This document shows positions 6,215 to 51,080 of a stretch of 64,000 nt of DNA, one piece after another. Position 1 is the stretch's first letter. Each line of letters begins with the position of its first letter. The position numbers and the translations under genes were made by a program. The notes under the pieces are model-generated. The model was not told where the DNA came from. It searched no databases and was given only the letters and a program-made list of their open reading frames with translations. The DNA comes from Candidatus Iainarchaeum sp. (lineage in GTDB: Archaea > Iainarchaeota > Iainarchaeia > Iainarchaeales > SKW153): NCBI GenBank assembly GCA_026414365.1, contig JAOAJD010000001.1:250144-314143 (forward strand). Direction: 5' to 3'.

Positions 6215-6313
6215 GCGATCGTAGTCTAGTGGTTAGGATAGGGCCTTGCCAATTTATAAACAAAATTAAAAAGCAAAAAGGCTCTGACCCGGGTTCGAAT
6301 CCCGGCGATCGCA
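6215..6313 (+). tRNA. tRNA-Gly(GCC), interrupted by a 27-nt intron
   Basis: Acceptor GCGATCG/CGATCGC, T-arm CCGGGTTCGAATCCCGG, spliced anticodon loop TTGCCAA on stem GGGCC/GGCTC. Confidence 0.93.
6252..6278 (+). other. Archaeal tRNA intron (27 nt) at canonical 37/38
   Basis: BHB core: outer GGGCC/GGCTC, central TTGC/GCAA, 3-nt bulges CAA and AAA; cuts CA^A and AA^A. Confidence 0.85.
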
Positions 6314-50796: not shown

Positions 50797-50900
50797 AAAA
50801 TATTAATAAAAAAGAAAAAACTATTAAATTGGTTGTCTTATTAAGTAAATTTTTAAAGGTATATTATTGAATATTTATTTTAAGGCTGAGTTCTGCGGGG

Positions 50901-50945
50901 TTTCAATTATTTTATTTTAAAAATAAGAATATAATTGGAACGCAA
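50901..50945 (+). other. Proposed 45-nt acceptor-stem intron of tRNA-Phe
   Basis: Contiguous 5' strand GCAAAAG mismatches CTTCCCC; removal restores GGGGAAG; region folds as TTTCAATTAT/ATAATTGGAA with BHB-like TGCG/CGCA core. Confidence 0.72.
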
Positions 50946-50979
50946 AAGTAGCTCAGCCTGGGAGAGCACACGGCTGAAG

Positions 50980-50995
50980 CTTCTAAAAAGCAGAA
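50980..50995 (+). other. Anticodon-loop intron (16 nt) of tRNA-Phe at 37/38
   Basis: CACGG/CCGTG outer helix, CTGA/GCAG central helix (3 bp + A.G), bulges AGC and AAA. Confidence 0.82.
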
Positions 50996-51080
50996 ACCGT
51001 GGTGTCGCGGGTTCAAATCCCGCCTTCCCCATATAAAAACCCTTTATTAAATTTTATTGTAAAGGATATTATTTAGAATT

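Follow-up and report, generated by a model that had tools for sequence, protein, structure and literature searches.

It is very probable that the tRNA-Phe(GAA) gene found at positions 50897-51031 (+ strand) is functional and that it carries two introns: one of 45 nt and of the BHB type, placed in the acceptor stem at position 4/5 and presented by a helix supplied by the 5' leader, and one of 16 nt at the canonical position 37/38. Coordinates without a contig prefix refer to the window, i.e. the whole 64-kb stretch of DNA that was analysed (C11:250144-314143). The genome under study (G000) belongs to the Diapherotrites (DPANN) and comprises 579 kb in 32 contigs, rated 68.5 % complete. The tRNA-Phe gene adjoins radA, whose product is 69-76 % identical to RadA of Ca. 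Diapherotrites and archaeon GW2011_AR10 records, an affinity that supports this placement. Protein scans of genome and viral contig collections with the neighbouring RelA/SpoT-like gene returned no relative.

Anatomy and identity of the tRNA-Phe gene

Read without splicing, the 5' acceptor strand of the gene is GCAAAAG, which pairs with the 3' strand CTTCCCC (51024-51030) at only 4 of 7 positions. The first-pass annotation had proposed that GGGG is joined to AAG by removal of an intron, and this was supported: GGGGAAG pairs with CTTCCCC at all 7 positions and, once both introns are removed, a textbook tRNA-Phe is obtained. Every sequence quoted in that annotation was located where it had been placed. 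Exon 1 (50897-50900, + strand) consists of GGGG, tRNA positions 1-4, and pairs with CCCC at 51027-51030. It is followed by intron 1 (50901-50945), which forms a hairpin, and by exon 2 (50946-50979), comprising AAG (50946-50948, positions 5-7), the D-arm, the anticodon stem, the GAA anticodon (50976-50978) and G37. Intron 2 (50980-50995) has the central helix CTGA/GCAG, the fourth pair being A.G, and the 3' site AA^A. Exon 3 (50996-51031) contains A38, the 3' strand of the anticodon stem, the T-arm, the 3' acceptor strand and the discriminator A73.

The flank was scanned with exon 1 allowed any length from 1 to 6 nt, on condition that all 7 acceptor pairs be restored in a BHB arrangement. Only one solution emerged from the real flank: a 4-nt exon 1 and a 45-nt intron inserted between acceptor-strand nucleotides 4 and 5, with three pairs in the central helix, nine in the inner helix and a contiguous outer run of 10 bp. 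Among 20,000 dinucleotide shuffles of the flank, one passed the scan under the strict criteria and 209 passed under the loosest ones.

ARAGORN reported positions 50942-51031 as tRNA-Ser(TGA), and the Rfam score of 39.4 bits was the weakest among five tRNA matches. The tRNA-Ser identity is a misreading of a tRNA-Phe(GAA) gene. The best match of the predicted spliced tRNA was an intron-free Diapherotrites tRNA-Phe in G056, with 95 % identity over positions 1-74. A second intact tRNA-Phe(GAA) gene, which the first-pass annotation had named as evidence against its reading, was not found in the assembled, 68.5 % complete genome, and a T-arm pattern search of the same assembly for a second or hidden tRNA-Phe gave zero-mismatch matches to known tRNAs only.

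The broken contiguous acceptor strand, and the fact that general tRNA finders misname or under-score the gene, could also be explained by a decayed pseudogene with a damaged 5' end, in which the hairpin and GGGG are incidental. This explanation is very improbable because the gene is the sole tRNA-Phe found, the remainder of the tRNA is intact, the perfect completion is unique and hardly ever matched by the strict shuffles, and the architecture is common to two relatives, with compensatory differences.

Several other tRNA loci of G000 were recorded. A probable tRNA-Pro(TGG) gene with a long intron in the anticodon region (L029, C11:78983-79092) was missed by ARAGORN and scored below the Rfam cut-off, and a tRNA-Gly(GCC)-like gene with a 27-nt canonical intron (window positions 6215-6313) was missed by ARAGORN and found by Rfam. 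The 3' half of a tRNA (T-arm and acceptor strand) lies at C27:3345-3405 (L028) inside an ORF resembling an SSV-type integrase split by an attachment site; contig C27 is possibly a virus or integrative element.

Fold and leader pairing of the acceptor-stem intron

The BHB motif consists of a central 4-bp helix between two 3-nt bulges, and cuts are made after the second nucleotide of the bulge. The four nucleotides of exon 1 are fewer than the six exon-side nucleotides that a BHB needs, so the central and outer helices must use the leader.

In the unconstrained fold the leader strand 50883-50894 (+ strand) pairs with 50947-50959, i.e. with the end of the acceptor strand and the D-arm, through 12 bp with one bulged U (50949, position 8), at pair probabilities of 0.90-1.0. 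Eight contiguous Watson-Crick pairs in this outer helix are formed with the D-arm, which bears out the leader/D-arm complementarity noted earlier. The segment 50878-50962 folds at -32.3 kcal/mol, whereas its shuffles average -13.6 (z = -6.4), and none of the 200 shuffles reached its value. The outer helix and an inner helix of 9-10 bp (50902-50910/50931-50939) flank the bulges GG^U and AA^A, and between these lies the central helix GCGG (50895-50898)/ACGC (50940-50943), made of three Watson-Crick pairs and one G.A. The spacing of this BHB is correct, but it is not the minimum-energy fold.

The tRNA-Phe loci were read across the phylum, and leader/D-arm pairing was compared in 48 genes picked by a regular expression. 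The longest Watson-Crick runs in this set were those of G000 (8 bp) and G070 (7 bp), a genome that has the same intron; in the other 46 genes the run was at most 6 bp, usually 3-5. The third genome with the intron, G036, lies outside the regular-expression set and has a run of 10 bp if G.U pairs are allowed.

A TATA-box-like sequence TTTTTAAAGG is present at 50850-50859 (+ strand), and its TTTAAA starts 45 nt before G1, in comparison to a cluster at -33/-32 in other G000 tRNA genes, which corresponds to about 12 nt of extra leader. The comparison rests on 8 motif counts over 22 upstream regions with very AT-rich flanks, and is suggestive of a transcript start near 50880, just 5' of the leader helix.

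The same intron in related genomes

The comparison with related genomes, which the first-pass annotation had recommended, covered members of the same order, all from families other than that of G000, and revealed an intron at 4/5 in two of them. The tRNA-Phe gene of G070 (L093; ...CUGAGCUCAACGGGG^ACUUAUUGUGUGUCUACACCAAUAGGCCGUUA^CUGUAGCUCAG) contains an intron of 32 nt and that of G036 (L138; ...GGUUGAGCACAACGGGG^AUUUGUUAUAACUUUAUUUUUAUAUCAAGCCGGUA^CUGUCGCUCAGCC) one of 35 nt. In each case the leader pairs with the D-arm of its own gene to form the outer BHB helix, with position 8 or 9 bulged. In the register GGGG^...^CTG the G070 precursor forms a perfect canonical BHB (central ACGG/CCGU, bulges GG^A and UA^C), and this is also its minimum-energy fold. 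Compensatory differences were seen at two places: the partner pair of nucleotide 6 is U-A in G000 and A-U in both G070 and G036, and the first central pair is G-C in G000 and A-U in G070.

Intact 7-bp acceptor stems are the rule among the Diapherotrites tRNA-Phe loci read, exceptions being few, and the 4/5 intron is sporadic: G056, of the same genus as G036, and G051, of the same genus as G070, have intact acceptor stems. When 93 genomes were searched with the pattern GGGG...GTMGCTCAGNC, inspection of the matches identified only G000, G036 and G070 as having GGGG ahead of a disrupted tRNA-Phe acceptor strand; the remaining matches were discarded as intact tRNAs or chance occurrences.

Split and permuted tRNA genes occur in archaea and use the same BHB logic (PMC3218864; PMC4090602), so a gene of this kind, or an assembly error that joined unrelated sequence to the 5' side of the tRNA, had to be weighed as well. 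Both are even harder to credit than a pseudogene, as the exons are in normal order, on one strand, 45 nt apart and within one hairpin, and as independently assembled relatives have the same layout. The split, permuted and pseudogene readings were all rejected, the exon order being normal, the rest of the tRNA intact and the architecture shared.

Introns at other sites of tRNA-Phe were also encountered in the phylum. Introns near position 9/10, between the acceptor stem and the D-stem, are present in L039 (G038), L148 (G061) and L150 (G072), e.g. GGGGCGGTA^...^GCTCAG. Introns in the D-loop, in the anticodon stem or at 37/38 were seen in L051, L056, L094, L114, L125, L127, L128, L133, L147 and L149, and some of these genes contain several introns.

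Exact cut register

The exact register in G000 is the weak point of the case. The first-pass annotation had described a TGCG/CGCA register with the caveat that it would give the alternative product GCGGGAG with a C:C mismatch, and both statements are correct. The intron could be real and cut elsewhere, either at 50899^50900 and 50946^50947 (47 nt), giving GCGGGAG, or in a mixed register at 50899^50900 and 50945^50946, giving CGGGAAG. In these registers the central helix has four Watson-Crick pairs or the inner helix is longer, and the predicted folds are 1.7 kcal/mol more stable than that of the GGGG^ register. They are nevertheless unlikely: each product has a C.C mismatch in its acceptor stem (GCGGGAG also a G.U), the homologous site of G070 is unambiguous at GGGG^, and a missing fourth central pair is normal for G000 introns.

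The fourth central pair, beside the 5' bulge, is missing in four of the nine canonical introns on C11 (L014, L015, L026 and the one in tRNA-Phe itself), hence the G.A pair of intron 1 is no disqualifying defect. Its likeness to the A.G defect of the anticodon intron in the same tRNA had been noted earlier and is borne out by the CTGA/GCAG helix described above. The 3' site of the canonical G000 introns is mostly AA^A, and the GGGG^...AA^AAG register of intron 1 follows the same pattern. The unambiguous G070 site supports the GGGG^ register in G000.

For the isolated G000 precursor the BHB folds were calculated at about -25.5 kcal/mol for the GGGG^ register and -27.2 for the alternatives; a slid pairing in which GGGG is buried reached -32.3. 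The BHB thus lies 5-7 kcal/mol above the predicted minimum (6.8 for the GGGG^ register), against 0-3.4 for the canonical G000 introns. Three explanations are conceivable: EndA may select the BHB, proteins or folding during transcription may favour it, or the folding model may err on this loop.

Splicing and processing enzymes

Genes for the enzymes expected to act on the precursor are present in G000: EndA (PF01974 match at C11:47352-47612), RtcB (PF01139 match at C11:490962-492260) and an archaeal RNase P RNA. Two RNase P RNA matches above the cut-off were obtained in the 579 kb (C18:350-580 and C11:20690-20935), and small contigs of the bin may derive from another organism.

EndA of G000 (L060:1273-1788) is one protein of 171 aa; its alignment with M. 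jannaschii 1a79 spans the full length and contains no insert. Exactly one PF01974 match was found in 82 of 93 phylum genomes, and PF02778 matched 80 of the 93, once each, with one extra sub-threshold match in G053. Neither a second EndA subunit, nor fused units, nor a CSL/ASL loop of 11-18 residues was found for G000. Gene content, from which the subunit composition is deduced, suggests that one short EndA without such a loop, encoded by a single gene, is all that members of the phylum possess. At the alignment position of the catalytic lysine (ARMAN-2 K282), 21 of 22 EndA sequences have Thr and one has Ala (L060, L142-L188). The Tyr and the His are conserved in every sequence in which this region was recovered, and a conserved GK(K/N) motif stands between the two; a lysine of this loop is a possible substitute.

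Non-canonical introns are said to go with an EndA bearing a CSL or ASL loop (PMC4033280; PMC12397907), and judging by their gene content the Diapherotrites look like an exception to this association. The points against the preferred explanation, a BHB-type 4/5 intron in a working gene, are that the BHB is not the minimum fold in G000, that EndA is encoded by a single gene, has no CSL/ASL and carries another residue in place of the usual catalytic lysine, and that a second tRNA-Phe gene may lie in the missing part of the 68.5 % complete genome.

Proposed order of processing

The leader is probably needed to mark the cut sites of intron 1. In the proposed mechanism the leader AGGCUGAGUUCU would pair with AG(U)AGCUCAGCCU, i.e. 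nucleotides 6-7 and the D-arm, and supply the exon side of the BHB. EndA would then cut at GGGG^UUU and CAA^AAG and RtcB would join GGGG to AAG. Splicing would release the D-arm and complete the acceptor stem, after which RNase P would remove the leader of 16-17 nt. As the outer helix would hold the D-arm and there would be no acceptor stem until the intron is removed, splicing would have to come before RNase P. It is from the sequence that we infer the splicing itself, the exact cuts in G000 and this order of events.

It is somewhat better than an even bet that a single-gene, loop-less EndA removes the acceptor-stem introns of Diapherotrites because the leader and the D-arm build a full BHB without the tRNA fold. 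Splicing would then be obligatory before 5' processing, and the CSL/ASL rule would be broken.

Relation to known introns and significance

Introns at tRNA position 3/4 have been described in certain Thermoproteales (Sugahara et al. 2008, as cited in the review PMC4090602). They resemble the 4/5 intron in lying within the 5' acceptor strand, in leaving an exon 1 of a few nucleotides and in being expected to need the leader for the BHB. The G000 intron differs in its position (4/5), host lineage (Diapherotrites), tRNA (Phe) and enzyme, EndA being encoded by a single gene here and consisting of two subunits in Crenarchaeota.

With the canonical 37/38 introns of G000 it shares the 3' site AA^A and a central helix of 3-4 bp whose fourth pair is often missing, but its outer helix is made of leader and D-arm and not of the anticodon stem. 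As in the split tRNA genes of Nanoarchaeum equitans and Caldivirga (PMC4090602, PMC4033280), the splice sites are presented by a helix built from flanking sequence outside the tRNA (leader or trailer); unlike those genes, the tRNA-Phe of G000 is encoded in cis, in one transcript and in normal gene order. No description of tRNA introns in Diapherotrites was found in the literature searched, most subscription papers lying outside its scope. As far as this literature shows, acceptor-stem introns are a known kind, and what is new is the position 4/5, the lineage and the single-gene enzyme.

The phylum apparently has a single short EndA and yet varied tRNA-Phe introns, located at 4/5, near 9/10, in the D-loop, in the anticodon stem and at 37/38, and therefore offers a test of the accepted co-evolution of EndA type and intron position. 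Because common finders give such genes a wrong name, in this case tRNA-Ser, DPANN genomes seem to have poorer tRNA sets than they really do. If the present reading is true, the 4/5 intron is a recurrent case, seen in three genomes of two families, of tRNA splicing that depends on a 5' leader, and the anatomy of the gene would dictate which comes first, splicing or RNase P trimming.
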